Of a stretch of 64,000 bases of DNA, positions 3,520 through 53,315 are shown piece by piece. The stretch comes from Sphingomonas radiodurans (GTDB taxonomy: Bacteria; Pseudomonadota; Alphaproteobacteria; Sphingomonadales; Sphingomonadaceae). Both the position numbers and the translations under genes were made by a program. The stretch lies in contig NZ_CP086594.1 in the NCBI RefSeq assembly GCF_020866845.1, positions 1,860,001-1,924,000 on the forward strand. Reading direction: 5' to 3'. A model generated the notes under the pieces. It made no database searches. It was not told where the DNA came from and worked only from the letters and a program-made list of their open reading frames with translations. Each line of letters starts with the position of its first letter. Position 1 is the first letter of the stretch.

Positions 3520-4491
3520 ATGGATCGCAAACAGGTACTGGCAGTGTGCGGCGGTTCACTGGTTGCAGTAGCAGCGGCAAGCTATGCTTTTGTTGGAGGC
3601 AAAGGAGAGGCTTCACGCAACGCCGTGCCCGTAAGCAAGCAGGCGGCGGTCGTTGCTCGTACCAAGGCCAAGGCAGTTCTCGCACCTCCCGCCATCGCGC
3701 CGCCGGGACTCGATGCTGCCCGCCCGTCCGATTGCCTGATCGAGCCATCGGCGGTCGTGCGCGTCAACAGCGGTGTCGAGGGGGTGATCCAGGCAATTTA
3801 TGTCGACCGCGGCGATAGGGTGAATGCGGGTCAGGTTGTCGCTCAGCTTCGCGCGGATGTTGATCGCGCCGGCGCGGCTGCCGCCCAGGCCCGGGCGAAC
3901 AACGTCCATTCGGAACGCGCCGCAGCAAGCCGCGCGGCCTACCTCGAATCGGTCAACCAGCGCAGCCAGAAGATCTCCGAGTTCCTCGCACGGGACTCGG
4001 TGGAAGAGGCGCAGGCCAACGCCCGCGCCGCTCAGGAAGAGCGATTGGCGGCGGCCCAGAACCGTCGCGTGGCTGAGCTTGAATCGGTGCAGACCCAGCG
4101 GATCATGGGTGAAAAGACGGTGCGCACGCCGGTTTCGGGCATCGTGACGCAGCGGGTTATGTCGCCGGGCGAATATCGCGGCGCGGATGCGACGCACATC
4201 CTTACCGTAGCCCGGGTGCACCCGCTGCATGTGGAGGTGTTCGCGCCGATCGCCCAGCTGGGTTCAGTTCGCGTCGGCGACATGCTGACCGTCAAACCGG
4301 AGATGCCGGTGGGCGGGGAATATCGCGCGACGGTGAAGGTCGTGGACCGCGTGTTCGATGCTGCGAGCGGCACTTTCGGCCTGCGGTTGGAATTGCCCAA
4401 CGCTGATTATGCGCTGCCTGCCGGACTGCGGTGCACGACCGAGTTCGACAAGCTGCCAGTCGCGCCCAGCCGCGCCCGGGCGAGCCGATGA
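3520..4491 (+). CDS. HlyD/RND-type periplasmic adaptor (membrane fusion protein)
   Basis: A 323-residue periplasmic adaptor that would link an inner-membrane exporter to a TolC channel. It starts with a signal-anchor-like hydrophobic stretch (residues about 6-26). The two halves of the biotinyl-lipoyl-like barrel are visible: SGVEGVIQAIYVDRGDRVNAGQVVAQL (about 87-112) and VRTPVSGIVTQRVMSPGEY (about 205-225). Between them is a predicted coiled-coil hairpin rich in Ala, Arg and Glu. A beta-barrel strand region follows (HVEVFAPIAQLGSVRVGD). TolC begins 45 bases downstream, so the two are probably cotranscribed. No inner-membrane pump is encoded next to it. It could serve any tripartite system, but its place at the head of the giant-protein block suggests that role. 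Confidence 0.85.
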   Translation: MDRKQVLAVCGGSLVAVAAASYAFVGGKGEASRNAVPVSKQAAVVARTKAKAVLAPPAIAPPGLDAARPSDCLIEPSAVVRVNSGVEGVIQAIYVDRGDRVNAGQVVAQLRADVDRAGAAAAQARANNVHSERAAASRAAYLESVNQRSQKISEFLARDSVEEAQANARAAQEERLAAAQNRRVAELESVQTQRIMGEKTVRTPVSGIVTQRVMSPGEYRGADATHILTVARVHPLHVEVFAPIAQLGSVRVGDMLTVKPEMPVGGEYRATVKVVDRVFDAASGTFGLRLELPNADYALPAGLRCTTEFDKLPVAPSRARASR

Positions 4492-4536
4492 CCAGCACCG
4501 CCACCTATTATCCAGTCCGTTGACAGGAGCCTGCCG

Positions 4537-6030
4537 ATGACCCGCAAGTCTGTGTTTCTCGCCTGCACTTCTGCGCTTTTGATGGGAGTTCCCCAGGCGA
4601 GTGCCGCCGACACACTCCAGGAAGCGTTGCGGACGGCCTATGTTCGCAATCCGACGCTGACGGCGCAGCGTGCGGCGGTCCGCGCGGCCAGCGAGGAAGT
4701 GCCGCAGGCACGCGTCGAGGGGCGACCGACCCTGGACGGCGATGTCACCTACCAGGAGAACGTCCTGCAGGGCGAACCGGCGGGCGGCGGCCTGCTCTCC
4801 GATCCCGACCGCCAGGTGAGCGCGCAGCTTAGCGCCAAGGTGCCATTGTTCAACTTCGGCGCGGTGACCCAGAACGTCCGCGCAGCCGAACAGCGGGTGG
4901 AAGCGAGCCGGCTCGGTCTGCGCAGCACCGAGAGCGAATTGTTCACCAATGTCGTGGGCGCCTACATGGACGTGCTCAAGGACGAGGCGGTGGTGCAACT
5001 GAACCTGCGCAACAGCGAGGTGATGCGTTTCACCGTCCGAGAGACTGGCGAACGTCGGCAGGCGGGCAATCGTGGCCCGACAGATGTCGCACAGGCCGAG
5101 GCGCGGATGGCGCTCGCCGAAAGCCAGCTGGAGACCGCCAGCGCCCAGCTGATTTCCAGCCGCGAGAATTATGTCCGTCTGGTCGGAAGTCCACCCGGCA
5201 CTTTGTCACAGCCCCCGGTGCTGCCCAACATGCCGACCAACGTCGATATGGCCGTGGCCGCAGCGCTGGAGAAGAATCCTCGGCTGCTGGCCGCGCGCAA
5301 GCAGCAGACCGCGGCGGGCTATGATGTAAAGGTGGCAACGGCACGCCGATATCCGCGGCTGAACGGCATCGGCGGGCTGAACCAATATGGTTATCTCGGG
5401 TCGCTCGCCGATAACACCGGGCCGCGCAACCGTGCCAATGAGGGTACGACGGCCTATGTCGGCGTTCGACTGGAGATGCCGATCCTCGACGGTGGCCGCG
5501 GAATTTCGCAGCAACGAGAAGCGCGCGCGCTAGAGCAGCAACGATACTTCGAAGTGCTGGCTGCGGAACGCGCCGTGGTGGCTGAGGTGCGATCGGCCTA
5601 CGCGACCTGGCTTGCTGCAGGCCGCGTCGTCAAGACCGCGCAGCGTGGCGTAGATGCCAATTCACGCGTGCTTTCCGGCCTCCGTGCCGAGACCGTGGCC
5701 GGATTTCGCCCGCTGCTTGACCGCCTGAATGCAGAGCAGGAACTGCTCAACGCGGAAGTCACGCTGGTGACCGCCGGGCGCGACGCCTACGTGGCTGGCT
5801 TCGCCCTGCTGGCAGCGATGGGCATGGCCGAGGCGCGTGACCTGAATTTTGACCAGGGTGTGCTGTATGACCCGACACTGACCTACAAGGAACTCCAGCG
5901 CCGGACGGTCGGCGGTGATGCCGGTCAATCATTGATCGAGGGCACAAGCACCGCGGACAGCCCTGCCCAGGATGCCGTAGTTGCCCCCACCACCGTGCCA
6001 GCTGTTCCCCAGATTCCGCCTGAAAACTGA
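4537..6030 (+). CDS. TolC-family outer-membrane channel protein
   Basis: A 497-residue outer-membrane efflux/secretion channel. A cleavable signal peptide ends near QASA (residues about 1-24). The mature part begins DTLQEALRTAYVRNPTLTAQRAAVRAA, the typical start of the first outer-membrane efflux repeat. The two long alpha-helical OEP repeats cover about 25-230 and 235-440. The motif DVAQAEARMALAESQLETA marks the coiled-coil helix of repeat one. The Pro/Thr/Ala-rich tail (about 460-497) is probably flexible and periplasmic. Length and layout fit the type I secretion TolC subgroup. It lies between the adaptor gene and the sigma factor gene (5-base gap), so it belongs to this block and would be the exit channel for whatever the block secretes. 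Confidence 0.9.
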   Translation: MTRKSVFLACTSALLMGVPQASAADTLQEALRTAYVRNPTLTAQRAAVRAASEEVPQARVEGRPTLDGDVTYQENVLQGEPAGGGLLSDPDRQVSAQLSAKVPLFNFGAVTQNVRAAEQRVEASRLGLRSTESELFTNVVGAYMDVLKDEAVVQLNLRNSEVMRFTVRETGERRQAGNRGPTDVAQAEARMALAESQLETASAQLISSRENYVRLVGSPPGTLSQPPVLPNMPTNVDMAVAAALEKNPRLLAARKQQTAAGYDVKVATARRYPRLNGIGGLNQYGYLGSLADNTGPRNRANEGTTAYVGVRLEMPILDGGRGISQQREARALEQQRYFEVLAAERAVVAEVRSAYATWLAAGRVVKTAQRGVDANSRVLSGLRAETVAGFRPLLDRLNAEQELLNAEVTLVTAGRDAYVAGFALLAAMGMAEARDLNFDQGVLYDPTLTYKELQRRTVGGDAGQSLIEGTSTADSPAQDAVVAPTTVPAVPQIPPEN

Positions 6031-6035
6031 ACGCC

Positions 6036-6725
6036 ATGCATGCTCGGCAGACATCTCCGGCCAGTATTGCGCGATCGCCACAACTGTTCGATTCTCGAAC
6101 AGATCGTCGCCGCAAGCATCGGCACGCCAAGGTTGCCATCGCCGCGGGCGTTAGGCATGTTTCGAGCGACGGTGGGGGGCAGATCATCGATTACGCGAAA
6201 CTCGCTGCGGAGTGGCAAGAGGGCGATCGCGAGGCCGGAAACGAGCTTTTCGGAGCTCTGGGCAATGAGCTTCGCGCTATTTCGGGCGCACTGCTGCGGC
6301 AGGAACGGAACACTTCGCTTTCCATCGGCGATCTTGTCAACGAGGCGATGATCAAGCTTTTGCGGCTGAACGTGATGGAGTTGCAGAGCAGGGCTCATAT
6401 TCTTGCGATGACGAGCCGGTTGATGCGGCAGATCTTGATCGACGAGGCACGAAAGCGCGCGGCGACGCGGCACCATCACACGTCCGTTACGCTAACCACC
6501 CATATCGCCGAATGGGAAATGTCGATCGACATCATGACGGTGGAAATGGTGCTGAAAGAGTTGGCGGAAATCGATCCCCAGCGCGCCCAGATCGTCGAGA
6601 TGCGCTTTTTCGGGGGCATGTCTTCGGCCGATGTCGCTATCGTGCTCGGCATTTCGGAGCCAACCGTCAAGCGGCGCTGGGCAGCCACGCGCGCCTGGCT
6701 TCGCCATCGTCTCAGGCAGCCATGA
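6036..6725 (+). CDS. ECF-type RNA polymerase sigma factor (TIGR02999-like)
   Basis: An alternative sigma factor of the small ECF type. The recognisable part begins about residue 50 (DYAKLAAEWQEGDREAGNELF, region 2), with SIGDLVNEAMIKLLRL and MTSRLMRQILIDEARKRAA matching regions 2.3-2.4. Region 4 is LKELAEIDPQRAQIVEMRFFGGM followed by the helix-turn-helix SSADVAIVLGISEPTVKRRW. This fits the ECF subgroup that often sits beside Ser/Thr kinase genes. The first 50 residues from the ATG at 6036 are not part of the domain; I see no better in-frame ATG, so the start is uncertain. Its stop overlaps the kinase start (ATGA, 6722-6725), which suggests coupled translation. Probable targets are promoters of this block, but that is inference. 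Confidence 0.85.
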   Translation: MHARQTSPASIARSPQLFDSRTDRRRKHRHAKVAIAAGVRHVSSDGGGQIIDYAKLAAEWQEGDREAGNELFGALGNELRAISGALLRQERNTSLSIGDLVNEAMIKLLRLNVMELQSRAHILAMTSRLMRQILIDEARKRAATRHHHTSVTLTTHIAEWEMSIDIMTVEMVLKELAEIDPQRAQIVEMRFFGGMSSADVAIVLGISEPTVKRRWAATRAWLRHRLRQP

Positions 6726-9163
6726 CATCACGCGGGGAGGGTACTGGCGTGAGCCGGGAAACCGAACGCCGGGCGATGGGCCTGATCGAGGAAGCGCTCG
6801 AACTGCCGTCTGACGAACGATCCGCCTACATCGAGGGGCGCGAGGACGTGTCCGCCGAGGTTCGCACGCTGGCCCTTGCCATGATGGAGTCCGACCGCGA
6901 GGGGCATCTCTCAATCCGGACCGGCGGGGCAAGGGACGCCCTCGGCCCCGACGATAACATTCCGCCCGAGCTGCCCGGCTATCGCATTCTGCGCCAATTG
7001 GGGCGTGGCGGCATGGGTGCCGTGTGGCTGGCCGAACGCACCGGCAGCGATTTCGCGCATCAGGTCGCCATCAAGGTCATCAAACCAGGGGTTCTGCAAG
7101 AAAGCATCGTCGAGCGTTTTCGGCGCGAGCGGCAGATCCTCGCACAATTGAACCACCCCAATATCGGCCATCTGCATGACGGCGGCGAAACGGCTGATGG
7201 GCAGCCCATCATCGTCATGGAATATATCCGCGGCATCACGCTGCGCGAATGGCTGCAGACCGCAAAACCGACGCTCGACCAGCGCCTGAAGCTATTTCGT
7301 CAGGTTGCCGGTGCGGTCGGTTTTGCCCATCAGAACTTGGTCATTCACCGCGACCTGACCCCCAGCAACGTGCTGGTAACCGACGACGGGCAGGCCAAAC
7401 TGATCGATTTCGGCATTGCCCGCCCGCCGCTTCAGGATGACCAGGCGGCACGGACGAGCACCTTCTCCGCGCTCAGCCTAACGCCCGGTTTCGCGGCGCC
7501 CGAGCGCGAACAAGGCCTCGCGTCCAACACACTGACCGACATCTTTTCGCTCGGCCGCCTGTTCGCCTTGTTGATCGAGGGCCAGCGCGAATATGAGCTG
7601 GAGGCGATTGCCGAACGAGCCTCCGCCCCGGCGAAGGAGGAGCGATACCAGAGCGTCAGCGATCTCATCGACGATCTGGACGCCTTTCACGATCATCGCC
7701 CGGTAACGGCAGTCCCGGATAGCCGCCGCTATCGTTTTGCGAAGTTCGTCGAGCGCGAGCGGACCATCGTGATCGCATCGACCGTCGTGATGGTGGCGCT
7801 TGTCGTCGGGCTGTTGGTAGCAATCTGGGCGTACGACCGCGCCGAAACAGCGCGCGGCGAGGCAGAGCAGCGCTTCGACCAACTGCGAGATCTGGCGCGT
7901 TTCCAGCTGTTCGAACTGTACGATGCGATGGACAATGTGGTCGGCAATACTGCCGCTCGCGTGGCGCTTGCGCAACGCGCGCAGGGCTATCTGATCACGC
8001 TTGCAGCCAGCCGGAGTGACGATCCAGAACTGCAGCTGGAGACCGCGCAGGGCTTCCTGCGGCTCTCGCGGATTCAGGGCGTTGCGGCGCATCCCAACTT
8101 TGGCGAATCCGCGCTGGCGGCGAAGAATATCGATCGGGCCGAGCCCATCTTCCGGGCGTTGGCCGCGCGTGGTATATCCGCCGGCGATACGGGGCTGGCG
8201 ATGGCTGAAAGCTATCGTGCGCTGTGGCTGGCGCATTCCGAGAGCAAGCCCGAGAAGGCGAAGGAAGCCATCGCACGGGCCGAGGCGGCGCTGGCCCGTG
8301 TGCCCGCCGCGGAGCGGAACTGGGAGTGGATGCAGGCACGGCGGATCGCTCGGGTGGCCGCTCTGGAACGCGCCGATCTCGAGCTCGATACGCCGGTCAT
8401 CGCGCGATACGTGGCCCTGGTCGAAAGCGACATCGGTGACTGGCCGGCCAATCGCCGGACGGGGTATGAGGCTCGTTTCGACCGAGCAATGGCGGAAAAC
8501 TACCGCGCGATCGCCGATCAGAATCGCGCGGGCTCCGGAGACCCGCTCAACAAACAGCTGTTGCAGCAGTCACTTGGGCGGTTCCAGAAATCAGACCGGA
8601 TGTTCGGCGCGCTCGAAGCCGATTTCCGTAATGATCCCCTGGTGATCTATCGCCGGGCCTGGAACGCCTATTACGGCTATGCCGCCGCCGCCACACTGGA
8701 CGAGGCCGCCGAGACGGAGCGGCTGCTGACCCAGGCGCGTTCATCGGTGGAAAGGCTGATGAAGATCGAGGAGGCCGATCACTCGCTGACCGTCTTTGCC
8801 GAGCGGTTGCGCGAAGCACAGGCGCAATTCCTTTCGAATGCCGGGCGGCACGCCGAAGCTATCCCGTTGATGGCGCAGGTGATCGAAGGGCGACGGGGCA
8901 AGATCAGAGCCAACCGGCGGTCCGCGCCGTTGAATGATCTGGCCTATGGGCAGGCCATCATGGGGACGATCTATCGCAAGGCGGGAATGCGTTCGGAGAC
9001 CTGTGCTGCCTGGGCCGAAGCGGAAGCCCTGATGGTCGAGGTTGACCGGCGAGGCGAATTGCATGGCTTCATCAAGAAGCTGCGACCCGGGGTCCAGGCC
9101 AATCTGCGGCATTGTCGCGCGGGTGATCCGATCAGCGCCATGACCCCGCTGGACGCTGCGTGA
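6722..9163 (+). CDS. Membrane-anchored PknB-type Ser/Thr protein kinase
   Basis: An 813-residue protein. The kinase domain spans about residues 86-345: Gly-rich loop LGRGGMGAVW, VAIK lysine at K118, catalytic loop HRDLTPSN at 209-216, DFG at 229-231, and an APE-like segment (FAAPERE). The usual Lys of HRDLKPxN is Thr here (T213). One transmembrane helix follows (about 349-372, VVMVALVVGLLVAIWAY), then about 430 mostly helical, TPR-like residues. The topology implies a cytoplasmic kinase and a periplasmic sensor part. The start at 6722 overlaps the sigma factor stop; the frame is open further upstream only as a shadow inside the sigma gene. It probably controls the sigma factor or the secretion block, as is common for such pairs, but no direct evidence is in the sequence. 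Confidence 0.87.
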   Translation: MTSRGEGTGVSRETERRAMGLIEEALELPSDERSAYIEGREDVSAEVRTLALAMMESDREGHLSIRTGGARDALGPDDNIPPELPGYRILRQLGRGGMGAVWLAERTGSDFAHQVAIKVIKPGVLQESIVERFRRERQILAQLNHPNIGHLHDGGETADGQPIIVMEYIRGITLREWLQTAKPTLDQRLKLFRQVAGAVGFAHQNLVIHRDLTPSNVLVTDDGQAKLIDFGIARPPLQDDQAARTSTFSALSLTPGFAAPEREQGLASNTLTDIFSLGRLFALLIEGQREYELEAIAERASAPAKEERYQSVSDLIDDLDAFHDHRPVTAVPDSRRYRFAKFVERERTIVIASTVVMVALVVGLLVAIWAYDRAETARGEAEQRFDQLRDLARFQLFELYDAMDNVVGNTAARVALAQRAQGYLITLAASRSDDPELQLETAQGFLRLSRIQGVAAHPNFGESALAAKNIDRAEPIFRALAARGISAGDTGLAMAESYRALWLAHSESKPEKAKEAIARAEAALARVPAAERNWEWMQARRIARVAALERADLELDTPVIARYVALVESDIGDWPANRRTGYEARFDRAMAENYRAIADQNRAGSGDPLNKQLLQQSLGRFQKSDRMFGALEADFRNDPLVIYRRAWNAYYGYAAAATLDEAAETERLLTQARSSVERLMKIEEADHSLTVFAERLREAQAQFLSNAGRHAEAIPLMAQVIEGRRGKIRANRRSAPLNDLAYGQAIMGTIYRKAGMRSETCAAWAEAEALMVEVDRRGELHGFIKKLRPGVQANLRHCRAGDPISAMTPLDAA

Positions 9164-9222
9164 CATCAATGCATGGCCGCGCCGAGGCGGACTTGGCGAA
9201 CATGATGCAAACCGAGCGCGCT

Positions 9223-9274
9223 TTGACATTTCCTGATCCGTTACCCCCGATTTTAACGCCTTAGTTATCGGGGG
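9223..9274 (+). promoter_or_regulatory. Leader region of the giant gene: -35-like box and strong hairpin
   Basis: The 294-base gap between the kinase stop and the giant gene holds a perfect inverted repeat, CCCCCGAT at 9244-9251 and ATCGGGGG at 9267-9274, with a 15-base loop. A TTGACA box at 9223-9228 lies just upstream, but I see no good -10 box at normal spacing. The hairpin lacks a clear U-run, so it is more likely a regulatory or RNA-stability element than a plain terminator. The giant gene ATG is about 180 bases downstream. Confidence 0.45.
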
Positions 9275-9457
9275 CATTGCGCGTCGTGCGCGATTGTCCC
9301 TTCGCAAAGTAGGGGGCGATATGGCCATGCAGGGAATGTCTGCACACCAATCGGGGCGCTTTCCGGGAGGAACGCGACCGATCGCCCTGGCAACAGCGCG
9401 CGCGATCACTCGCGCAACCGAGCGTTGCCCATCAACCATGTCTCCGATGGTGCCGGC

Positions 9458-12400
9458 ATGAACAAGATGACCTTTTCCGACATGCGTGACGGCCTTGCCC
9501 GGCGTTTGGGCGGCATGTCGGAGCTTTCCGGCAGCTTCAGCGAACGCAAGCGCGCCGCGCTCCGCACCTCGACCATGCTGTCGCACCGGATGACGATCGA
9601 AGCGCTCGAGCCACGCCTGCTGCTGAGCGCCGATGTCCCCCCGATCGTCGGTCGCATCGATGTCGCGGGAGAGGTCGACAGCTATGTCATCGATATCAAG
9701 GAAACGTCGAAGTTCCTGTTTGATTCACTCACCGACACGGATGCGATCAACTGGACGCTGAGCCACGGCGACGGCAAAACCATCGTATCGAACAGGACTT
9801 TCGGCGCGTCCGACGGTCGCGACTTCATGGGATCGCCGGTGCTCGATCTGGCGGTCGGCGAATATGCGCTCACGATCGACGGCGCAGCCGACACGACCGG
9901 AAACTACGCCTTCCGGCTCCTTGATCTTGCCGACGCCCCGCCGCTGACGCTCGGCGACCGGATTGCCGAGAACAATCCCGGCAAGGAAACTGACCTGTAC
10001 AGTTTCGATGCGGTCGCGAGCGACAGTTTCTTCTTCGATGCACAATTGTTCTCGGCTGGCGACGGTACGTGGCGTCTGCTCGGCCCCGATGGCGAGCAGG
10101 TGATAAGGCCGACCAATTTCGAAGATACCGGGCCGTTCACGCTCGCCCGCACCGGAACATATACGCTTGCGGTTGAGGGCCGAGACAGCAACGCTGCAGG
10201 GTTCGATTATGCCTTCACCGTCAATCGCATCAGCCAATCGACAAGCGAACTGCTGCTCGGCCAATCCTATGATGGCATCATCGACGGCGCCGGCAATTCG
10301 GCGATTTACAATTTCTCCATCGGCGATCGCAGCCGGGTGCTGTTCGATACGCTGCTGGCGTCGAGCGGCCTCAACTGGACGCTGACCGGCCCGCGCGGCA
10401 CGACGGTCAGCGCGCGCAGCCTGCTGTCATCGGATTCAGTTGATGGCGATCCGATCGTCATGCTGGTTGCGGGCGACTATCAGTTGCGTATCGCCGGCGC
10501 GGGTGCGGCGCAGGGGGCCTATGCCTTCCGTCTGCTCGACCTCGCCGACGCGACGCCGCTGGACTTCGCCGACCCCTTCTCGCGCACCATCGGCGATGGC
10601 GGCCTGACCATGCGGCGCGTGCGTGATCCAGGCGCGCCGCTCGATTATTCGGGCATCGAAGACCGGCCGAACCGCAGCTGGCCGGTCGATCGGCAGGCGG
10701 ATCTGGCGGTCCCGGATTCCGCCGCCCTGCGCTCCGAGCAGATCACCGTGGAAGCATGGGTCAAGGGCGACGGAGAGGATTTCTACGAAGGGCTGGTGGG
10801 CAAGACCAGCAGTTCCAGTTGGAGCGATGGTTATGCCATCGTGCGCACGGGCAATACTGTCCGCTTCTTCATCAACCGATGGAATGGGAGCTTTGTCGAG
10901 GCGCCGCTCGATGGATCCGATTGGCACCATGTCGCGGGAACCTACGACGGCGCGGCGCTCAAGCTGTACATCGATGGCGCGCTGGTGGCCGAGCAGGCCT
11001 CTGCGCTTGCGATCAATCACAGTGCGGCGCCGCTCGCTATCGGCGCCACGCCCAGCGGCGTGTACCAAGCGAGTGGATCGATCGACGAGGTCCGCATCTG
11101 GAACGCGGCTCGCACCGCCCAGGAGATTGCCGCCAATTGGCTCGTGCCGCTGACCGGCGCCGAAGCGGGGCTGGTCGGCTATTTTCCCTTCGACGAGGAA
11201 AGCGGGCTGACCAGCCTCGATCTCTCTCCCTCGAGCGCGATCGCGACCCAGCGGGCGATCCGGGCGAGCGAGACGCAATTGTTCCGCTTCGATGGCGCGC
11301 AGGGCGAACGCATCCTGTTCGACCTGCTCAGCTATACCGGCGACCCGCTCTATGTGCGGGTCTACGATCCCGTTGGTCAGCAGATCGCCGGATCGACCTA
11401 TCTGGGCGATTTCGAGCTGGCGTCGTTGCCCGCGACTGGCACCTATACGCTGGCGATCGAGGCGCGGGCGAGCAATCGGAACGCTGCGCAATTCAGCGCC
11501 GCGCTGCGCCGGGCGAGCGTGACGTCGGCGGCGCTGGAGATTGGCGCCACCGCGTCGGGCAGCATCCTGCCGGCCGAGACCAAAGCTTATAATTTCACCC
11601 TCCCCGGTGCGAGCCAGATGGTGTTCGATTCGCTCAGCGCCGCGTCGGGGCTGTCTTGGACCCTGAACGGCCCGCGCGGGGAGGAGGTCAGCGCAAGGTC
11701 GTTCTTATCTTCCGACAGCGTAGATGCCTACACGCTCGATGCGCTTGACCTGCCGGCGGGCGATTATGTCCTGCGGGTGGCGGGGCAGGGCAGTTCCGCC
11801 GGGGATTTCAGCTTCCGTCTGCTCGACCTCGCCGCTGCCGTGCCGGTGACGCTGGGGGTGGCGGCTAGCGGATCAATCGATCCCGGCAATTCGACAGATG
11901 TTTTCACCTTCAATGGCACTGCCGGAGACCGGATCAGCCTGGCTCGGCTCACCACGTCCGCCGAAACCCCGGCCTACGTCCGTGTGCTCGATCCGACCGG
12001 GCGGCAGATCTATGCACCCGATTTTTTCAACGGTGACGAACAATTCACGCTGCCGTCGACCGGCGCCTACACGATGCTGATCGAGGCGCGCTACTATACT
12101 GCCGCCGCTCAGGACTATACTTTCCAGCTTAATCTGCTGTCCAACACGCCCCCGGCGAGTACGGCGGAGGGATCATCGATCGCCCTCGGTGCGACGGTCA
12201 GCGGCACGCTGGAAGCGGCCGACGAGACCGATCTGTTTACCTTCAGCACGACCGGCCCGTCACGGCTCTACATGGACTCGCTGACCTACGATTCGGGCAA
12301 GAGCTGGACTCTGGTCGGCCCGCGCGGGGTGGAAGTGGGGCCGTGGACGCTGGCGAACACCGACAGCTACGAGCGCGGCGGCGATCTCTCGATCGATCTG

Positions 12401-42400: not shown

Positions 42401-45400
42401 CTGATCGCAGCGCATGACATTCCTGCGCCAGAGCAGGAGCAGGACCAAAACGGCGGTGCTGGCGGCAATGCCTCGACAATCGCTGATGCGCCCACCATTG
42501 TGCTTCAGCCGGTTGAGGGGGGCGAGTTCGTCCAGACCCTCGCCATGGCATCGCCTCTGCAGCTCGGCATCGTGGCCACCAATCCGCTCACAAATGGCGA
42601 TTTTTCCGCCGCGAGCGGCTGGAGCGGCACCGGCGCGGGCTCGGTTTCGGGCGGCGTCGGGGTGCTGGCGGAGCATTCGCAGCTGCTCAGCTCGCTGCGG
42701 GAGGGCTTCGCCATCCCCGCGGGCGCGCAGAGCATCAGCTTCCGCATCGAATCCGCCACGCTCGGCACCAGCGCCGACCTACCGCCCGACGCCTTCGAAG
42801 TGGCGCTGCTCGATCCGGTGACCGGGCTGTCGCTGCTCGGCGCGCTCGGCGGGCTCGACTTAAGCGACGCGATGCTCAACCTGCAGGCCGACGGTTCGCT
42901 CTACCTCGCCCCCGGCGTGGTGGTGCAGGGCAATCCGCTGACGGGACCGGCGATCGTAACCATCTCGCTTGCCGGAATGGACACCACCAATGGCGTGCTG
43001 CTCAGCTTCGACCTGATCGGGCAGGGCGCGCTCGACAGTCTGGTGACGGTCGACAATGTTACCTTCGGCGGCACCGTCAACACCCAGCCGGTGGCGCAGG
43101 ACGATGCGGTTTCCTTGCCCGAAGACGGCTCGCTGGCGATTGACTTCCTCGCCAACGATGCCGATGTCGATGGGGATCCGCTCGCGGTGACGATCCTGAC
43201 TGGCCCGGCCAACGGGACCTTGGTCGCTCCCGCCCAGCCGGGTGGCGGATGGACCTATGTGCCCAACGCCAATTATTTCGGGCCTGATAGCTTTACCTAT
43301 TCGGTCACCGACAACATCAACCCGCCCGCCAACGCCACGGTCAGCATCACCGTCAATGCCGTGAACGATGCGCCCGCAATCGACCCGGTGGGCGATTTCA
43401 GCGCCGGGCTCGGCTCGGCGATCGCCCTTGCGGTCGCGGCAAGCGATATCGACGATGCTCCCGAGGATTTGACTTTCACCTTGGTCTCCGGTCCCGAGGG
43501 GGCGATCCTGTCTCCGGATGGCCAATTTACGTGGAATGCGGTTGGCGCCGGCGATCAGGCGGTCACCGTGCGCGTCACCGACGCCGCTGGAGCCTTTGTC
43601 GAAACCAGCTTCACGATCACCATGACGCCCGCGGAGAATGCGTCGCCGCTGATCGGCGCGGTCGGTTCGCAGGTGGTGGCCGAGGGTGAAACCCTCTCTG
43701 TGCAGCTGACCGCCAGCGATCCCGATCACGAGCCGGCTGCGCTGGTGTACAGCCTCGTCTCCGGCCCGGCCGGCGCCAGCATCTCGCCCGGTGGTTTGTT
43801 CAACTGGACCGCAACTGGCGACGCTGCCCAGCAGCAGGTGACGGTCCGTGTGACTGATCCGGAAGGAGCCTCTACCGAGACCAGCTTTGCCATTGCGGTA
43901 ACCCTGATCCCCGGCAACACCGCCCCCGTGGCCACGCCGGTCGATGACCGCGCGGTGAAACCGGGCGGGATCGTCATCATCCCGCTGACGGCCAGCGACG
44001 CCGAGGACGAGCCGGGCGATCTGGTGTGGACGCTCGTTTCGGGGCCAGAAGGAGCGGCAGTCTCCCCGACCGGCGTGTTCAGCTGGACCGCAGACGCGGT
44101 GCCGGGCGACCAATTGGTTACGGCCCGGGTCACCGATAGCGCGGGGCTTTTCGCTGACGTCAGCTTCAGCATCACGGTCGATACGCGAGCGAACATCGCG
44201 CCAGTGTTCGGCCCGGTGACCAACCGCGCGGTCACAGCCGGTGACGCCGTAAGCGTGCAATTGTCCGCTACCGATAATGATCACCCGCAGGACGCGCTGG
44301 TCTTCAGGCTGGTCGCTGGTCCCGAAGGCGCCAGCGTCACCGCGGACGGGCTTTTCAGCTGGAATGCAAGCCGGCCAGGCGATCAAACGGTCATCGTCCG
44401 CGTCACGGACCCGGCGGGTGCTTTTGACGAGGCGCGCTTCACGATCGCCGTCACCGCCCAACCGAACACCGCCCCCGTGGCGATGGCGGTCGACGACCGC
44501 ACCGTGAATCCGGGCGGCGTCATCATCATCCCGCTGACGGCCAGCGACGCCGAGGACGAGCCGGGCGATCTGGTATGGACGCTCGTTTCGGGACCGGAAG
44601 GCGCTACCGTCTCGCTGACCGGCCAGTTCAGCTGGACCGCCGGTGCGCCGGGCGATCAGGCGGTTACGGCCCGCGTCACCGATAGCGCGGGGCTTTTCGC
44701 TGACGTCAGCTTCACCATCACGGTCGATGCGCGGGCGAACGCGTCGCCAGTGTTTGGCCCGGTAACCGATCGTGCCGTGACGGCAGGTGACGCCGTAAGC
44801 GTGCAATTGTCCGCTACCGATAATGATCACCCGCAGGACGCGCTGGTCTTCAGCCTGGTCGCTGGTCCCGAAGGCGCCAGCGTCACCGCGGACGGGCTTT
44901 TCAGCTGGAATGCAAGCCGGCCAGGCGACCAAACGGTCATCGTCCGAGTCACGGACCCGGCGGGTGCATTTGACCAGGCGAGCTTCACGATCGCCGTCAC
45001 CGCACGACCGAACACCGTCCCCGTGGCCACGCCGGTCGATGACCGCACCGTGAAGCCGGGCGGCCTCGTGATCGTTTCACTGACGGCCAGCGACGCCGAG
45101 GAAGATCCGGGAGATCTGATGTGGTCGCTCATTTCGGGACCGGAAGGCGCTACCGTCTCGCCGACTGGCGTGTTCAGCTGGACCGCCGGTGCGCCGGGCG
45201 AGCAAGCCGTGATCGTGCGTGTCACTGACCGGGCGGGTGCATTTGACGAGGTGAGCTTCATCATCGCCATCGCAGCGGTTCCCAATCAGAGCCCGGTGCT
45301 GGAGGCACTGCCTGCGTTGACGGTGGCGGAAGGGCAGACGGTTACGTTCAGTCTCGTCGCGACGGACCCGGATGGTCCGGCCGAGGCGCTCGTTTGGGAT

Positions 45401-47215: not shown

Positions 47216-49104
47216 TGGAGGACAGCACGGCGCGGGTCGCCGATCCTCGCGGCGAACCGACCGACGACGCTGCTTCGCCCGATGCGGCCGAAGCCCAGCT
47301 TTGGACGGCCCTCGCCTCGGCGAGCGATGGGGCGAGCTTTTGCCGGGCGTGGCTGGATCTGCAATGCGCCCGCACGCCCGGAACGATCGCCGGGCTCGTT
47401 CTGCTGGAGGCGGGGCCGCGCGCTTACGCCCCCGCGGCAATCTGGCCCGCTGCGCCGGTCGATCTCGATCCGTTGCGCCAGGCGGGTGAAACCGCGCTGG
47501 CCAGCGGCCAGCCACAGATCATCCCGCCCGTCGCGAAGAACGGGCACACGTTGATCGCATATCCGGTCGCCTCGTCCGAGCAGATTCATGGTGTCATCGT
47601 CCTGGCACTTGCCGATTCCAGTTCGTCCGGCCTGCAACGGGCGTTGCGCGAACTCCACTGGGGCGTCGGCTGGATTCTCTCGCTGGTGTGGCAGCACAAG
47701 GCGGCGAGCGGCGGTGAAGCGGTGGCGACGGCGCCCCCCGCTGCGGTGGCGGCAATGGAATTGCTGGCTGCGGTGCAGGAGAAGGACAGCCTACAGGAAA
47801 CATTGATGGCCTTTGCCAACGAGGTTGCGCGCGCCGTCCAGGCAGATCGTGTGGCGATAGGATTGGTCAGGCACAATTCGGTGAAGCTGGCGGCAATGTC
47901 GCACGGTGCCTGGTTTCGAAAGCGTTCCGATATCGTCGAACTGATCGAGGCCGCGATGGACGAGGCGCATGACCAGCATGCCCGCATCGTGTTGCCCCAC
48001 GAAAAGGACGGTGGTGCGATTACGATCCAGCACGCGCGGCTTTCTGCCGCCAGCGCGAGCGGGGCCGTTGCCTCGATCCCGTTCGAGGATCGCGGTATTC
48101 CCTCTGGCGTGCTGACGATCGAGCGGGACAAGGACGGCCAGGCTTTCACCGCGGCTGAGCTTTTGCTGTGCGAAACCGCGGCTTCGCTCGTCGCACCCAC
48201 GATATCCCTGAAGCAGCGCGAGGCCCGCCTCTTCAGTGGGCGTATCCGGAACAAGGCGATGGACGGCGCCCAGGCGCTGTTTGGTCCGCGTCGGCCCTTG
48301 GCCAAGGCTGTCGGGATCGCCGCGCTGTTGCTCGCCGTCGTGCTGCTCGTGCCGCTGGCGCAATTCCGGGTCAGTGCCGATGCGGCGCTCGAAGGCCGGG
48401 TTCAGCGTGCCGCCGCCGCACCCTTCGATGGCTTCATTGCGCGCTCCAGCGCCCGGGCGGGCGATACGGTGCAGGAGGGCGAGGTTCTGGCGACGCTGGA
48501 TGATCGCGATCTCCGCCTCGATCATGCGCGCGCAGAGGCCGAAACGCAGCGACTTGGCCGCCAGTATCGCAAGGCACTGGCGGAGCACAATCGCGCGGAA
48601 ATGAACATCTACGGCGCGCAATTGCGTCAGGCTGAATCAGAGCTTCGCCTGATGGCCTATAAGCTCGATCGGGTGAACATCGTCGCCCCCTTTTCGGGCG
48701 TGCTCGTCTCCGGGGATGTGAGCCAGTTGGTCGGCTCGCCCGTGGAAGAAGGGAAAGTCCTGTTTGAGGTTGCCCCGCTCGATGATTTCCGCGTCGTGCT
48801 GAACGTGCAGGAGGGGGATATCGCCTATCTGGAGTCAGGACAGAAAGGGCGCTTCGCGCCGGCCGGGCTGGCCGGGGAAACAGTCGCCTTCACCGTTACC
48901 AAGCTGACGAGCGTCACCGACAGTCGCGACGGCAACAATACGTTCCGGGTGGAGGCGGAACTCGATCCGACAGCGCGTGAGATGCTGCGGCCGGGTATGG
49001 AGGGCGTGGCAAAGGTGGATATCGATCGCCGCAGCCTGCTGGGGATATGGACGCGCCCCGTGATTGATTGGCTGCGCCTGTTTGCCTGGAAATGGCTGCC
49101 GTAG
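47215..49104 (+). CDS. GAF-domain HlyD-type membrane fusion protein
   Basis: A 629-residue protein. Residues about 25-165 resemble a first, degenerate GAF-like domain (LIAYPVASSEQIHGVIVLAL). Residues about 194-335 are a clearer GAF domain (LMAFANEVARAVQADRVAIGLV, then IPSGVLTIERDKDGQAFTAAE). One transmembrane helix is at about 365-383 (IAALLLAVVLLVPLA). The HlyD periplasmic part follows: lipoyl half AAAPFDGFIARSSARAGDTV (about 402), a coiled-coil hairpin, the second half VNIVAPFSGVLVSGDVS, and a barrel. A cytoplasmic GAF sensor joined to a periplasmic adaptor is unusual and suggests ligand control of export. The start overlaps the stop of the giant gene (TGATG), and the next gene begins 13 bases downstream. 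Confidence 0.88.
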   Translation: MEDSTARVADPRGEPTDDAASPDAAEAQLWTALASASDGASFCRAWLDLQCARTPGTIAGLVLLEAGPRAYAPAAIWPAAPVDLDPLRQAGETALASGQPQIIPPVAKNGHTLIAYPVASSEQIHGVIVLALADSSSSGLQRALRELHWGVGWILSLVWQHKAASGGEAVATAPPAAVAAMELLAAVQEKDSLQETLMAFANEVARAVQADRVAIGLVRHNSVKLAAMSHGAWFRKRSDIVELIEAAMDEAHDQHARIVLPHEKDGGAITIQHARLSAASASGAVASIPFEDRGIPSGVLTIERDKDGQAFTAAELLLCETAASLVAPTISLKQREARLFSGRIRNKAMDGAQALFGPRRPLAKAVGIAALLLAVVLLVPLAQFRVSADAALEGRVQRAAAAPFDGFIARSSARAGDTVQEGEVLATLDDRDLRLDHARAEAETQRLGRQYRKALAEHNRAEMNIYGAQLRQAESELRLMAYKLDRVNIVAPFSGVLVSGDVSQLVGSPVEEGKVLFEVAPLDDFRVVLNVQEGDIAYLESGQKGRFAPAGLAGETVAFTVTKLTSVTDSRDGNNTFRVEAELDPTAREMLRPGMEGVAKVDIDRRSLLGIWTRPVIDWLRLFAWKWLP

Positions 49105-49117
49105 GCGCGCGCGAGCA

Positions 49118-51292
49118 ATGGCAAATCCTTTCGAAAGCGCCAGCTGGTTCAACGTAGCGCACTTGAAGCCAAAGCTGCGCGCGCATCTGCGGGTGCGGCG
49201 CCACGTCTATCGTGGGCAGGTGTGGTATATCCTCGATGACGGTGCGACCGGCAGGGTCCATCGCTTTCCGCGGGGGGCCTATCTCCTGATCGGCCGACTG
49301 GACGGAACGCATACCGTCAACGGACTCTGGGAATGTCTGGTGGACGAGATCGGCGAGGACGCACCGACGCAGGACGATGTCATTCGTGCCCTCGGCATGC
49401 TGCACGGTTCAGACCTTCTCGCCAGCGATGCGACGCCCAACACGGCCGAGCTCTTCAAACGACAGAAGAAGCAGAAACGCCAAGTGTGGCTGCAGAATCT
49501 GAAAAGCCCGATGTCGCTGCGCTTTCCGTTGGTTGATCCCGACCGGTTCCTGACGCGGACCATGCCTTGGCTTCAGCCGTTGTTTGGCTGGTTCGGTTTG
49601 GTGTTGTGGTTGGTGCTGGTCATCTCGGCCCTGGTTCTGGCCGGCGCGAATTGGGACGAGCTGACGGGAAATTTGTGGGATCGCGCGCTCGCAGCAGACA
49701 ATCTGTTCATCATGGCCTTCGTCTATCCGGCCGTGAAAATCGCCCATGAACTGGGTCACGGCTATGCCGCAAAGATGCGGGGCCGCGAAGTACGCGAGAT
49801 GGGCGTGATGCTGCTGTTACTGTTTCCGGTGCCGTATGTCGATGCATCGGCGGCGGGAGCATTGGCAAGCAAATGGCAGCGGGCTCTTATCGGTGCAGCA
49901 GGGATGCTGACGGAACTGTTGCTCGCCGCCGTGGCGATGTTTCTCTGGGTCATGGTCGAACCGGGGGTTTTTCGGGCGATTCTGTTTAACGTGATGCTGG
50001 TGGCGGGAATTTCCACGATCCTCGTCAACGGCAATCCGTTGCTGAAATTCGACGGCTATTTCATCCTGTCGGATCTGATCGAGATCCCCAATCTTGCGCA
50101 GCGCTCGAACAAATACTGGGGCGACCTGATGTCCCGGCATGTGTTCAAGACGCCCGGGCAGGAGGAGTTTGCCGCGACCCGGGCGGAAAAGCGGTGGTTC
50201 ATCGTCTATGCCCCTGCCGCATTCTTCGCACGCATGGCGATGATGCTTGGCATAGCTTTGCTCGTAGCGAAGAAGTTCTTCTTCATTGGCGTCGCCATCT
50301 CGATCTGGACTTTATGGACCTCCATCGCGCTGCCGGTGTGGAAGATGTACGCGCATGTCTTCACGAGCCCGCAATTGCAGCGCAACCGTCGTCGCGCAGT
50401 GCAATGGACCGTCGGCGCGACCGCCGCGCTGATGCTTGGTCTGTTCGTGATCCCCGCACCGCATCATGTCACCACACAGGGCATCGTCTGGTTACCCGAG
50501 GCGGCCCATGTGCGGGCCGGTGGTGATGGCGTTATCGACACCGTGTCCGCACGCGAGGGTCAGCAGGTTCGCGCCGGCGAATTGCTGGTCGAAACGGCAA
50601 ATCCGATCCTCGATGAAGAAGTCGAAAAGCTGCGCTGGCGCGCGCGCGAACTCCAGGCGAAGGCCGATACCGAACTCAGGGCAGGGTTCGGTGACGCTGC
50701 GGGAGACCGGGTGCTGCGCGATGTCGGCCAGATCGAGGTGGCAGAGGCGATCAAGCGGCTTGCCGTGGAGCAGAACAGGCTTGGTGACCTGAGCATCGAA
50801 GCCGGCACATCGGGTCGCTTCGTCCTTGCCGCAGCGACCGCTGCGGATCTTCCGGGGCGTCATGTCAGAAAGGGCGAGCTGATCGGCTATGTCACGCCCG
50901 GTAGCGCTGACGTTGCCCGGATCGCGGTTCCGCAGGATGATTTCGAGCTGATCCGCGGTCGCCTCGACAGCTTGAAACTGAAGATCGCCGACCGTCCGGT
51001 GCAGACCTTTGACAGCGCCATCGTGCGTGCGGTGCCCGGCGGAACGTTCGACCTGCCAAGCCCGGCACTCGCCACGACCAACGGCGGACCGTTCGCGCTT
51101 GATCCGACGGCGCAGAATGGCCCGGTCTCGCTCACGCGGGTGTTCCTGTTCGATGTCGCCTTGCCGGCGACGGCCGAGACGGTGCCCTTCGGCACGCGCG
51201 TGCATGTTCGCTTCCAGCTCGATTGGGAGCCATTGGGGTGGCAGCTCTTCCGCCGCGTTCGCCAGCTGTTGCTATCGCAATTCGATGCTTGA
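49118..51292 (+). CDS. PqqD-like / M50 site-2 protease-like / HlyD fusion membrane protein
   Basis: A 724-residue protein starting at the ATG at 49118. Residues about 25-105 resemble the PqqD/RRE winged-helix fold (WYILDDGATGRVHRF, then LDGTHTVNGLWECL and DDVIRALGMLHGSDLL). The membrane part begins at about 150. The M50 zinc motif HELGHG is at residues 210-215, and the third-ligand motif NPLLKFDGY has its Asp at 312. Several transmembrane helices surround these (about 152-175, 200-300, 375-460). From about 455 the chain becomes an HlyD-type lipoyl/coiled-coil adaptor (GGDGVIDTVSAREGQQVRAGELLVE). A barrel-like C-terminus reaches the stop. It looks like an intramembrane protease fused to a periplasmic adaptor. 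The SecA-like gene starts inside its last eight bases. Confidence 0.88.
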   Translation: MANPFESASWFNVAHLKPKLRAHLRVRRHVYRGQVWYILDDGATGRVHRFPRGAYLLIGRLDGTHTVNGLWECLVDEIGEDAPTQDDVIRALGMLHGSDLLASDATPNTAELFKRQKKQKRQVWLQNLKSPMSLRFPLVDPDRFLTRTMPWLQPLFGWFGLVLWLVLVISALVLAGANWDELTGNLWDRALAADNLFIMAFVYPAVKIAHELGHGYAAKMRGREVREMGVMLLLLFPVPYVDASAAGALASKWQRALIGAAGMLTELLLAAVAMFLWVMVEPGVFRAILFNVMLVAGISTILVNGNPLLKFDGYFILSDLIEIPNLAQRSNKYWGDLMSRHVFKTPGQEEFAATRAEKRWFIVYAPAAFFARMAMMLGIALLVAKKFFFIGVAISIWTLWTSIALPVWKMYAHVFTSPQLQRNRRRAVQWTVGATAALMLGLFVIPAPHHVTTQGIVWLPEAAHVRAGGDGVIDTVSAREGQQVRAGELLVETANPILDEEVEKLRWRARELQAKADTELRAGFGDAAGDRVLRDVGQIEVAEAIKRLAVEQNRLGDLSIEAGTSGRFVLAAATAADLPGRHVRKGELIGYVTPGSADVARIAVPQDDFELIRGRLDSLKLKIADRPVQTFDSAIVRAVPGGTFDLPSPALATTNGGPFALDPTAQNGPVSLTRVFLFDVALPATAETVPFGTRVHVRFQLDWEPLGWQLFRRVRQLLLSQFDA

Positions 51293-53315
51293 ATATCGCG
51301 CGATAAAGGCAGGTGCCGCTGACGTATGGCGCGAGGTCCGCGCCGACAAGCGCCCGGTGATCGCACCGTATCCCGAGCTTGGTCCCGCGAAGAAATGGAA
51401 ATGGGATCGTCCGCTGGAAAAGTTGATCGGTCGGGTGCTCGTCGATGCGCCCGTTCTGGGAAGAGGACTGCTCGCACGCGCCGAGGCAATCCTCGAGCGC
51501 TTCGCCGATCTGACGGCGTTGGGCGAGGAGGCTTTCCTCGTTCGGTGCCGCGAGATGCGTGCGCGCCTGACGCGTCACGGCATGGTGCCCGACCTTGTCG
51601 ACGAATGTTTCGCCCTGATCCGGGAGGCGACAGGGCGCCAGCTGGGCATGCGGCATTATGCGGTCCAGCTGATGGGTGGGCTGGTGATGGTGGAAGGCGG
51701 GGTGGCCGAAATGGCCACGGGCGAGGGCAAGACGATCACGGCCTTGCTGCCGGCCATCACTGCCGCATTGGCCGGGATGCCGACACATATATTCACCGTA
51801 AACGATTATCTCGCCACCCGTGATCTTGAGAAGCTTGATCCGGTGTATCGCCTGTTCGGCCTGTCCACCGGCCTGATCGTTCAGGACACGGAGCCGGAGG
51901 AACGGCGGCAGGCCTATCTTGCCGATGTCGTATACGGGACCAACAAGGAAATCGCCTTCGATTATCTGAAGGATCAGGCAACGCTGGCAAACGGTCGAGG
52001 CCTGGCGCGGCGCCGCGTCCGGCGTCTGTGCGGCCAGCCCTGTCCGCCCTTGACGATGCGCGGGTTGCATTTCGCGATCGTGGACGAAGCGGATTCGATC
52101 TTCATTGACGAGGCGCGTACCCCGCTGATCCTCTCTGCCACGCGCCCCGCAGGGGATGACGGCCTATACCTGTGCGCGCTCGAGCTTTCGAAACAGCTCG
52201 AAGTGAAGACGCACTTCTCCGTCAAGGAAGCTGAACGCGCGATCGACCTGACCGAACGGGGCAAGCGCGCGGTCGAGGCGCTGGCGGCTGGCCTGCCGCA
52301 GCGTCTCTGGCGTATACGCCAGGCACGCGAGCAACTGGCCGCGCAGGCGCTCTCCGCCAGGCTGCTGTTCCTTAAGGACCGCGACTATGTCGTCGTCGAT
52401 GGCAAGGTGCAGATCGTCGACGAATCTACCGGGCGCACCATGCCGGACCGATCATGGGAAGGCGGACTGCACCAGATGGTCGAGGCCAAGGAAGAGGTGG
52501 AAGTCACTGGCAATCGCACCACGCTCGCCCGGATCACATACCAGCGCTTTTTCCGCCGGTATCGTCGGCTGTCCGGGATGAGCGGGACGGTGCGCGAGGT
52601 GGCTGGCGAGCTGTGGGCGGATTTCGGGCTGCGCGTGTACACGGTTCCGACCAATCGACCGTGCCAGCGGATCCATCGCGGCCACGTGCTGGTGCGCCAC
52701 GCTGCCGAAAAATGGTCGCTGATTGCGCACACCGTGGCTGCGGTGCGCGACGCGGAGGGGATGCGTCCGGTTCTGGTCGGAACCCGTTCGGTGGCGGATT
52801 CGGATGCCGTCAGCGCAGAGCTGAATGCATGTGGCATCGCTCACCGCGTCCTGAACGCACGACAGGATCATGACGAGGCGGAGATTGTCGCGCGGGCAGG
52901 GCATTTGGGCGCCGTGACGGTGGCGACGAACATGGCCGGTCGGGGCACGGATATCGAAATCCCGGCCGACGTCAGGGCGGCAGGCGGCCTCCACGTCATC
53001 CTGACCGCCTTTCACGAAACGGCCCGGGTCGACCGCCAGCTTTATGGGCGCGCCGCGCGACAGGGCGACCCCGGATCATCGGAAGCGATCACCGCCCTCG
53101 ACGATGAACTTTACCGCCACTTTGCCCCGCAGCTGGCGAAAACGGTCGCGTCCTTCAGCCGCGAATGGCCGGTCGTCGGCGGCGCCGCCAAATGGCTGCG
53201 CCGATGGGCGCAATCCGTCGCCGAACGTCGTCACGCTGCTAGCCGACGCCAGGCCGAACTCTCCGAAGAACGGTTGAAGGAAAGCCTGGCGTTAGCCGGG
53301 ACCCTGTCAGACTAA
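51285..53315 (+). CDS. SecA-like ATPase lacking the C-terminal half of canonical SecA
   Basis: A 676-residue protein; canonical SecA is about 900. The ATG at 51285 overlaps the previous gene by eight bases; the frame is open further upstream only as a shadow. Motor motifs are intact: Walker A GEGKT at 146-150, DEAD-type box DEAD at 267-270 followed by SIFIDEARTPLI, motif TYQRFFRRYRRLSGMSGT (about 416-435), GRGTDI at 552-557, and GRAARQGDPGSS at about 588-599. The preprotein-crosslinking region between them is roughly full size. Only about 77 residues follow the last motif, so the wing domain, two-helix finger and Cys-rich zinc tail of canonical SecA are absent. An extra Cys-containing insert (LCGQPCPPL) precedes the DEAD box. 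It is probably a dedicated motor for the giant protein, not the housekeeping SecA. Confidence 0.9.
   Translation: MLEYRAIKAGAADVWREVRADKRPVIAPYPELGPAKKWKWDRPLEKLIGRVLVDAPVLGRGLLARAEAILERFADLTALGEEAFLVRCREMRARLTRHGMVPDLVDECFALIREATGRQLGMRHYAVQLMGGLVMVEGGVAEMATGEGKTITALLPAITAALAGMPTHIFTVNDYLATRDLEKLDPVYRLFGLSTGLIVQDTEPEERRQAYLADVVYGTNKEIAFDYLKDQATLANGRGLARRRVRRLCGQPCPPLTMRGLHFAIVDEADSIFIDEARTPLILSATRPAGDDGLYLCALELSKQLEVKTHFSVKEAERAIDLTERGKRAVEALAAGLPQRLWRIRQAREQLAAQALSARLLFLKDRDYVVVDGKVQIVDESTGRTMPDRSWEGGLHQMVEAKEEVEVTGNRTTLARITYQRFFRRYRRLSGMSGTVREVAGELWADFGLRVYTVPTNRPCQRIHRGHVLVRHAAEKWSLIAHTVAAVRDAEGMRPVLVGTRSVADSDAVSAELNACGIAHRVLNARQDHDEAEIVARAGHLGAVTVATNMAGRGTDIEIPADVRAAGGLHVILTAFHETARVDRQLYGRAARQGDPGSSEAITALDDELYRHFAPQLAKTVASFSREWPVVGGAAKWLRRWAQSVAERRHAASRRQAELSEERLKESLALAGTLSD

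Follow-up and report, generated by a model that had tools for sequence, protein, structure and literature searches.

The window analysed here is a stretch of 64,000 nucleotides from Sphingomonas radiodurans (G000:C1:1860001-1924000), whose genome consists of a single contig of 3.68 Mb. It contains a compact block of eight genes, all on the same strand, organised around a giant protein with an N-terminal LEPR-x-LL motif, and this block is examined here as a candidate export system devoid of any ATP-binding cassette (ABC) transporter. The eight genes were all found at the positions given to them by an earlier, sequence-only reading of this DNA. Its statement that the block holds no ABC gene is also borne out: none was found among the genes of the window, and the four ABC_membrane (PF00664) matches of this genome all lie outside the block.

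The giant gene (9425..47215, +) was delineated from its open reading frame (ORF) and its domain matches. It encodes a surface-type protein of 12,596 residues, the predicted cargo of the system, and starts at a TTG codon with an ATG located 33 bases inside. It carries many domains of adhesin type, with Laminin_G_3, CARDB, He_PIG, Big_9, cadherin-like, PKD and cohesin-like matches. The LEPRLLL motif stands at residue 61, within a region reading LEPRLLLSAD (9593..9649, +) that scores 28.5 bits with family NF012209, whose curated cut-off is 17. This tag is a predicted address signal, on the basis of the NF012209 match, of direct reading of the sequence and of the co-variation with machine type described below. 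No strongly hydrophobic stretch is found near it (best 15-residue mean 1.01). The protein contains no cysteine, and no RTX motif was found in it, either as a PF00353 match or by pattern, a non-RTX C-terminal signal being still possible. At its C-terminal end, the cohesin-like domain (PF00963, about 46200-46800) is followed by a calcium-loop-like DADGD stretch, presumably akin to a dockerin, and the two together are a possible anchoring module.

Three genes follow immediately. A GAF-HlyD fusion of 629 residues (47215..49104, +; PF01590, PF13437, PF16576) overlaps the end of the giant gene by 1 base. After a gap of 13 bp comes an M50-HlyD fusion of 724 residues (49118..51292, +; PF02163), which carries a HELGH zinc-protease motif and is the predicted leader reader, protease and inner-membrane core of the machine. 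Its last 8 bases overlap the gene of a short SecA of 676 residues counted from its ATG (51285..53315, +; PF07517, PF01043, PF21090, with PF07516 not listed), the predicted motor. The second of these proteins had been described as a PqqD-M50-HlyD fusion. The M50 and HlyD parts stand, while Pfam calls no PqqD domain in the window protein, though it does so in 13 of the 17 family members that were aligned (M50 being called in 16 of them and HlyD_3 in 14). The HExxH motif is kept in 98 of 99 M50-HlyD proteins, and the C-terminal adaptor half matches the MexA, AcrA and MacA folds. The daptide protease family NF041824 scores 134 bits on the window protein, below its cut-off of 300.

The short SecA was aligned with the separate full-length SecA of the same genome (G000:C1:56265). 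NBD1, PPXD and NBD2 are kept, as is the start of the scaffold helix over ~40 residues, while the wing domain, the two-helix finger and the C-tail are absent. An AlphaFold2 model of the short SecA (pLDDT 79.6) has SecA as its closest solved fold (PDB 1tf5). Its scores with the SecA2 families TIGR03714, TIGR04397, TIGR04221 and NF012136 are all below the curated cut-offs.

The other components expected of an export route lie upstream of the giant gene. They are an HlyD-family periplasmic adaptor of 323 residues (3520..4491, +; Pfam HlyD_D23/HlyD_3, NCBIfam RND_mfp) and an outer-membrane channel of the TolC family (OEP) of 497 residues (4537..6030, +), supported by PF02321 at 187 bits and by TIGR01844 at 245 bits, over its cut-off.

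Conservation of the module and its association with the tag

Related loci were collected through the M50-HlyD protein alone, using a profile built on 17 such proteins, and the best 80 of 475 were retained as named loci. A GAF-HlyD homologue is present in 78 of these, the two misses being loci that begin at the M50 gene, and in 75 it lies on the same strand at no more than 300 bp upstream of M50-HlyD. A SecA-like ORF is found in 76 of the 80, three of them degenerate, and stands directly behind M50-HlyD in 67. An HlyD protein similar to the separate adaptor of the window occurs in 56; this gene is upstream of the giant in the window, but directly after SecA (within 500 bp) in 43 of the 80 loci. 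An ABC-like ORF was seen in only 8. The named loci extend to Omnitrophota, Nitrospirota, Rokubacteria, Myxococcota and Thermodesulfobacteriota. The sequence-only reading had expected this gene set to be conserved beside other LEPR-x-LL genes, and this is indeed what is observed, in co-occurrence as well as in adjacency, with a core free of ABC genes. Two additional families can be seen around these loci: a SapC-family protein (PF07277, one member tested) near 14 of the 80 (L133:12015-12974 and 13 more within L067-L146), in some cases between M50-HlyD and SecA, and a DUF3467 family (two members tested) near 12.

The association with the tag was surveyed in 299 genomes, sampled evenly across the phylum of the window organism, with Fisher p values that ignore the relatedness of the genomes. 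Profile searches for M50-HlyD and short SecA scored three candidates per genome, so that any further copies escape the counts. A short SecA was called at E<=1e-120 with an alignment reaching the C-terminal positions of the model, and an M50-HlyD protein of at least 430 bits was termed type A. NF012209 matched 45 sites in 33 of the 299 genomes. An M50-HlyD profile match (E<=1e-10) was present in all 33 of these, versus 38 of the 266 others (p 2e-24). Type A proteins occur in 28 genomes: 26 have both LEPR and type A, 7 LEPR only, 2 type A only and 264 neither (p 8e-29). Among the matches listed, the short SecA occurs in 24 genomes, with 23 holding LEPR and short SecA, 10 LEPR only, 1 SecA only and 265 neither (p 1.5e-25). 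For these counts, G069 (short SecA cut by the contig end) and G002 (a weak match of 193 bits, SecA_DEAD 85.6 bits) were taken as SecA-absent, and G222 and G034 as SecA-present despite internal stops. The NF012209 model, which has 24 positions, missed G150, where the ORF reads EPLEPRLLFSA, and the large ORF of G002 runs off its contig; both were kept as LEPR misses. Also among the matches listed, 12 genera show variation in LEPR or short SecA, and seven of them are concordant (g1, g14, g17, g19, g82, g86 and g106), with both features in 16 genomes and neither in 28.

The two partners are also physically close. For 29 LEPR sites, an M50-HlyD gene is present on the same contig; the distance between the two is at most 12 kb in 26 cases and 15, 36 and 646 kb in the remaining three, the last one (the second site of G019) having been added as a miss to the 28 examined. 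Since tag and machine occur together in the surveyed genomes, the LEPR-x-LL tag is likely an address label. Two genomes, G014 and G077, hold three type A M50-HlyD genes each, every one with its own short SecA, which suggests that several giant proteins may each have an exporter to themselves.

Seven LEPR genomes lack type A, and their M50-HlyD proteins, which score about 200-265 bits, define a type B. These seven form a single group with a support of 100 in a tree of 99 M50-HlyD proteins. Their neighbourhoods contain a second HlyD adaptor in 7 of 7 cases, and a small HlyD and an OEP gene in 6 of 7 each. GAF was not called in the adaptors of these seven loci nor in two further type B adaptors. 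Clustering gave no other gene common to at least three of the seven neighbourhoods besides M50-HlyD, HlyD, OEP and a frame antisense to M50.

The residue that follows LEPR-x-LL co-varies with the type of machine. All 12 type B sites have D there, as against 1 of the 33 type A sites (p 4.5e-10), the latter showing 30 S, 1 A, 1 N and 1 D. At 17 of all these sites, no M50 gene lies on the contig at 100 kb or less, and the type was assigned from the best M50 score of the genome. As five genomes typed in this way (G018, G026, G030, G061 and G081) hold both M50 types, a separate count was restricted to sites with an M50 gene within 100 kb, and D was then found in 8 of 8 type B versus 1 of 20 type A sites (p 2.9e-6). 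The IEPR tags of G218 and G141 were missed by the motif pattern, and their next residue was read by eye as S. Two genomes, G006 and G235, hold both pairs; of the two M50-HlyD genes there, it is the type A one that lies closer to the S-type tag, and the D-type tag is 4-7 kb away from the type B one. The named type A loci have 11 LEPR ORFs in view, followed by S in 8, A in 3 and D in none, and the LEPR pattern was encountered elsewhere in the ORF sets of these loci only once in 559,232 residues.

The remaining two genes of the block are an extracytoplasmic function (ECF) sigma factor, a regulator (6036..6725, +; PF07638, TIGR02999), and a Ser/Thr protein kinase (6722..9163, +; PF00069 at 119 bits), whose open frame spans 6512-9163 and whose ATG at 6722 overlaps the sigma factor stop. 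They had been proposed as parts of the machine, which the comparison does not support: neither has a counterpart in any of the 80 related loci (phmmer E<=1e-4, flanks up to 10 kb). No LEPR or M50-HlyD match was found in the 6 genomes of the same genus and 10 of the same family that were surveyed, so the block may have been acquired. The region is bracketed by an IS3-family transposase gene (1399-2250, +) and an IS1595-family transposase gene (62260-63072, -).

A probable exporter of giant proteins and the alternatives

The exporter reading is founded on observed features, namely the content, order and overlaps of the genes, the conservation of the module, its adjacency to and co-occurrence with LEPR, the co-variation of the tag letter, and the retained ATPase and HExxH motifs. 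The block is probably a dedicated, ABC-free exporter of the LEPR-x-LL giant, composed of the GAF-HlyD, M50-HlyD and short SecA proteins with the nearby HlyD and TolC, the LEPR-x-LL N-terminus being the predicted address. Leader peptides at protein N-termini are the ligands of PqqD-like (RRE) domains, M50 enzymes act as proteases within the membrane or close to it, and HlyD and TolC make up a conduit spanning the periplasm. From this knowledge of the families, a mechanism can be sketched in which the N-terminus of the giant would serve as the address, the PqqD-like end of M50-HlyD would read this leader and the M50 part would cut it. The short SecA would then provide an ATP-driven push in place of an ABC transporter, and HlyD and TolC would lead the giant out. 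Since the constant partner of the tag is M50-HlyD and not SecA, the inner-membrane core is most likely M50-HlyD, with SecA as a motor that is usual but can be replaced. The best reading of the exporter is therefore a constant core of M50-HlyD, adaptors and TolC, to which the short SecA is the usual, not universal, motor. A wider and more tentative proposal, which may well not hold in full, is that of an exporter family for the largest surface proteins with an N-terminal zip code: LEPR-x-LL followed by S or A would direct the cargo to the GAF- and SecA-containing type A, and LEPR-x-LL followed by D to the GAF-free and SecA-free type B. In such a family, M50-HlyD would be reader, protease and gate, and SecA a bolt-on motor gained, blunted or discarded by different lineages.

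Several observations weigh against the exporter reading, in whole or in part, and they are considered here together with the other explanations to which they lend themselves. Pfam finds PqqD (PF05402) neither in the M50-HlyD protein of the window nor in ten type B M50 proteins (0/10). The letter rule is broken in type A by the tags of G206 (D) and G129 (N). Other exceptions concern SecA, which the sequence-only reading took as the only motor; that it is indispensable is not supported. It is missing from the type B loci, which nevertheless have LEPR cargo, M50-HlyD, HlyD and mostly TolC, and it is absent or degenerate in eight otherwise recognisable cassettes. No SecA stands beside M50-HlyD in L097, L137 (a short contig), L147 and L164, and all ATPase motifs are lost from the SecA-like proteins of three named loci (L099, L119 and L129) and of L148 in the survey. 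It is also missing from L094 and L138, where the locus ends. Intact copies exist elsewhere in the genome of L097, and one in that of L119; a search for an intact short SecA in the genomes of L099 and L129 gave nothing, and, among the matches listed, no short SecA was seen elsewhere in G263 and G150. The absent and degenerate cases are scattered in the M50 tree, where starred branches require three or more independent changes for either kind; L147 and L164 sit on long branches of this tree. Within genera, and again among the matches listed, five of the 12 varying ones are discordant, with LEPR but no short SecA in g94, g107, g114 and g129, and a stop-containing short SecA without LEPR in g93 (G034).

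These exceptions speak for a rival reading in which M50-HlyD, the HlyD proteins and TolC would form the exporter by themselves, with energy from elsewhere and the SecA-like protein as an accessory unfoldase, chaperone or quality-control factor. Indeed, the type B loci, L147, L164 and L137 pair LEPR cargo with M50-HlyD in the absence of SecA, and in L099, L119 and L129 the LEPR or large ORF and the cassette persist beside a SecA deprived of its ATPase motifs. This possibility deserves attention but is rather unlikely, given that Walker A (GxGKT/S) is kept in 73 of the 76 SecA-like proteins of the named loci and that SecA so regularly follows M50-HlyD; moreover, some SecA-free loci may be decaying, and the clustering of type B neighbourhoods revealed no further shared gene beyond those listed above. 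The pseudo-SecA proteins remain encoded by long open frames in the SecA position of the cassette (L099:11898-14075, L119:12136-13857, L129:12333-13868 and L148:12742-14694) and are worth a study of their own. Alternatively, the short SecA could work with the ordinary SecYEG channel in the manner of SecA2 and bring the giant into the periplasm, M50 and HlyD acting later. The motor core is clearly that of SecA, with 1tf5 as best PDB match, and the PPXD is kept. The two-helix finger, however, serves to push through SecY, and the short SecA ends where the scaffold helix starts, devoid of finger and wing domain; the N-terminus of the cargo likewise lacks a strongly hydrophobic stretch near the tag. 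Such a route appears improbable.

A different objection is that an ordinary type I ABC exporter encoded elsewhere secretes the giant, the M50/SecA module being limited to trimming, tethering or release. This was addressed in 34 LEPR genomes (the 33 and G150) with TIGR03375, TIGR01842 and TIGR01846, at reporting thresholds of E 1e-120, 1e-100 and 1e-140. A type I ABC protein over the curated cut-off exists somewhere in 26 of the 34, and in three genomes the LEPR gene has a PrtD-type ABC gene in its vicinity, at 4.3 kb in G218, 9.3 kb in G228 and about 21 kb in G141. RTX motifs, which are typical of ABC-exported proteins, are present (at least 4) in 20 of the 58 loci with an ORF of at least 1000 residues. 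On the other hand, 8 of the 34 genomes have no type I ABC over the curated cut-offs, and 5 of those (G048, G064, G082, G088 and G106) have no match in any of the three families at the reporting thresholds, including G082, which is a single-contig genome. The window giant itself has no RTX motif, and the only type I-like ABC reported in its genome scores 542 bits, below cut-off, matches positions 130-590 only and contains two internal stops. An ABC exporter acting from elsewhere is judged to have little chance of being the right answer. The broken gene, at L167 (G000:C1:2668000-2687900), is found beside a short frame and flagellar-looking genes recognised by eye, in what looks like a decaying type I locus or the result of sequencing errors. 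Finally, the machine might export something else, the LEPR genes being merely frequent neighbours, as could be argued from the 71 genomes with an M50-HlyD-type match of any kind, of which 38, including two of type A, have no LEPR call. This last explanation is very improbable: every LEPR genome has an M50-HlyD match, the two genes are adjacent in 26 of 29 cases, and the tag co-varies with the machine type, including in the two genomes that hold both pairs. As for the two type A genomes devoid of a LEPR call, the tag of G150 is visible by eye and the large ORF of G002 leaves its contig.

Comparison with known systems

The composition of this block had been presented as that of a pathway not previously described, and this does not hold. 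Kamneva, Poudel and Ward reported in 2015 (PMC4452313) that GAF-HlyD, M50-HlyD, SecA_DEAD and HlyD belong to one operon in Methylobacterium extorquens AM1, sometimes with OEP, and they suggested that SecA provides ATP hydrolysis and M50 the pore, while calling the role of the module "completely unknown". The machine of the window is a member of this module: it shares a second SecA_DEAD protein besides the full SecA, the adjacent M50-HlyD and GAF-HlyD genes, an HlyD protein and the lack of an ABC transporter in the locus. The terms LEPR, giant, PqqD and adhesin have no occurrence in the main text of that article, where no cargo is named, and the parts of it that were covered make no mention of variants in which SecA is missing or degenerate. 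LEPR-XLL itself receives only a passing mention in the covered parts of two other articles (PMC10868602, PMC9611531), and searches of open PubMed Central returned nothing further on a LEPR-x-LL cargo or tag combined with the module. Relative to the 2015 module, what is likely new is the likely cargo, the likely address with a letter that depends on the machine, and the fact that SecA can be dispensed with.

For a secretion module that has been known as an orphan since 2015, this provides a definite class of cargo and a candidate for the address signal. In cells where no type I ABC exporter is seen, it suggests a route to the surface for proteins that are many thousands of residues long and have no evident signal peptide. 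With a letter after LEPR-x-LL that is specific to the machine, the address lends itself directly to single substitutions and swaps, and the SecA-free relatives offer a way to ask what SecA contributes.

A functional parallel may be drawn with type I secretion (HlyB/HlyD/TolC), with which the window shares HlyD adaptors, a TolC channel and a long cysteine-poor cargo, RTX motifs being present in some of the related cargo ORFs. Type I systems rely on a dedicated ABC transporter, whereas the block has a membrane protease and a SecA in its place; likewise, the C-terminal RTX signal is lacking on the window giant, whose predicted address is N-terminal. The accessory Sec pathway also employs a second SecA besides the housekeeping one, and SecA2 serves certain surface proteins. 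The short SecA of the window differs from it by the absence of the wing domain and two-helix finger and by its HlyD, M50 and TolC neighbours. A third likeness can be found in the M50 and HlyD proteins associated with ribosomally synthesized and post-translationally modified peptides (NF041824 and the NHLP HlyD family TIGR03794), which share the M50 protease and the PqqD-like domain called in 13 of the 17 aligned M50-HlyD proteins. The LEPR system stands apart from them by a cargo thousands of residues long, a fused HlyD arm and a SecA partner.

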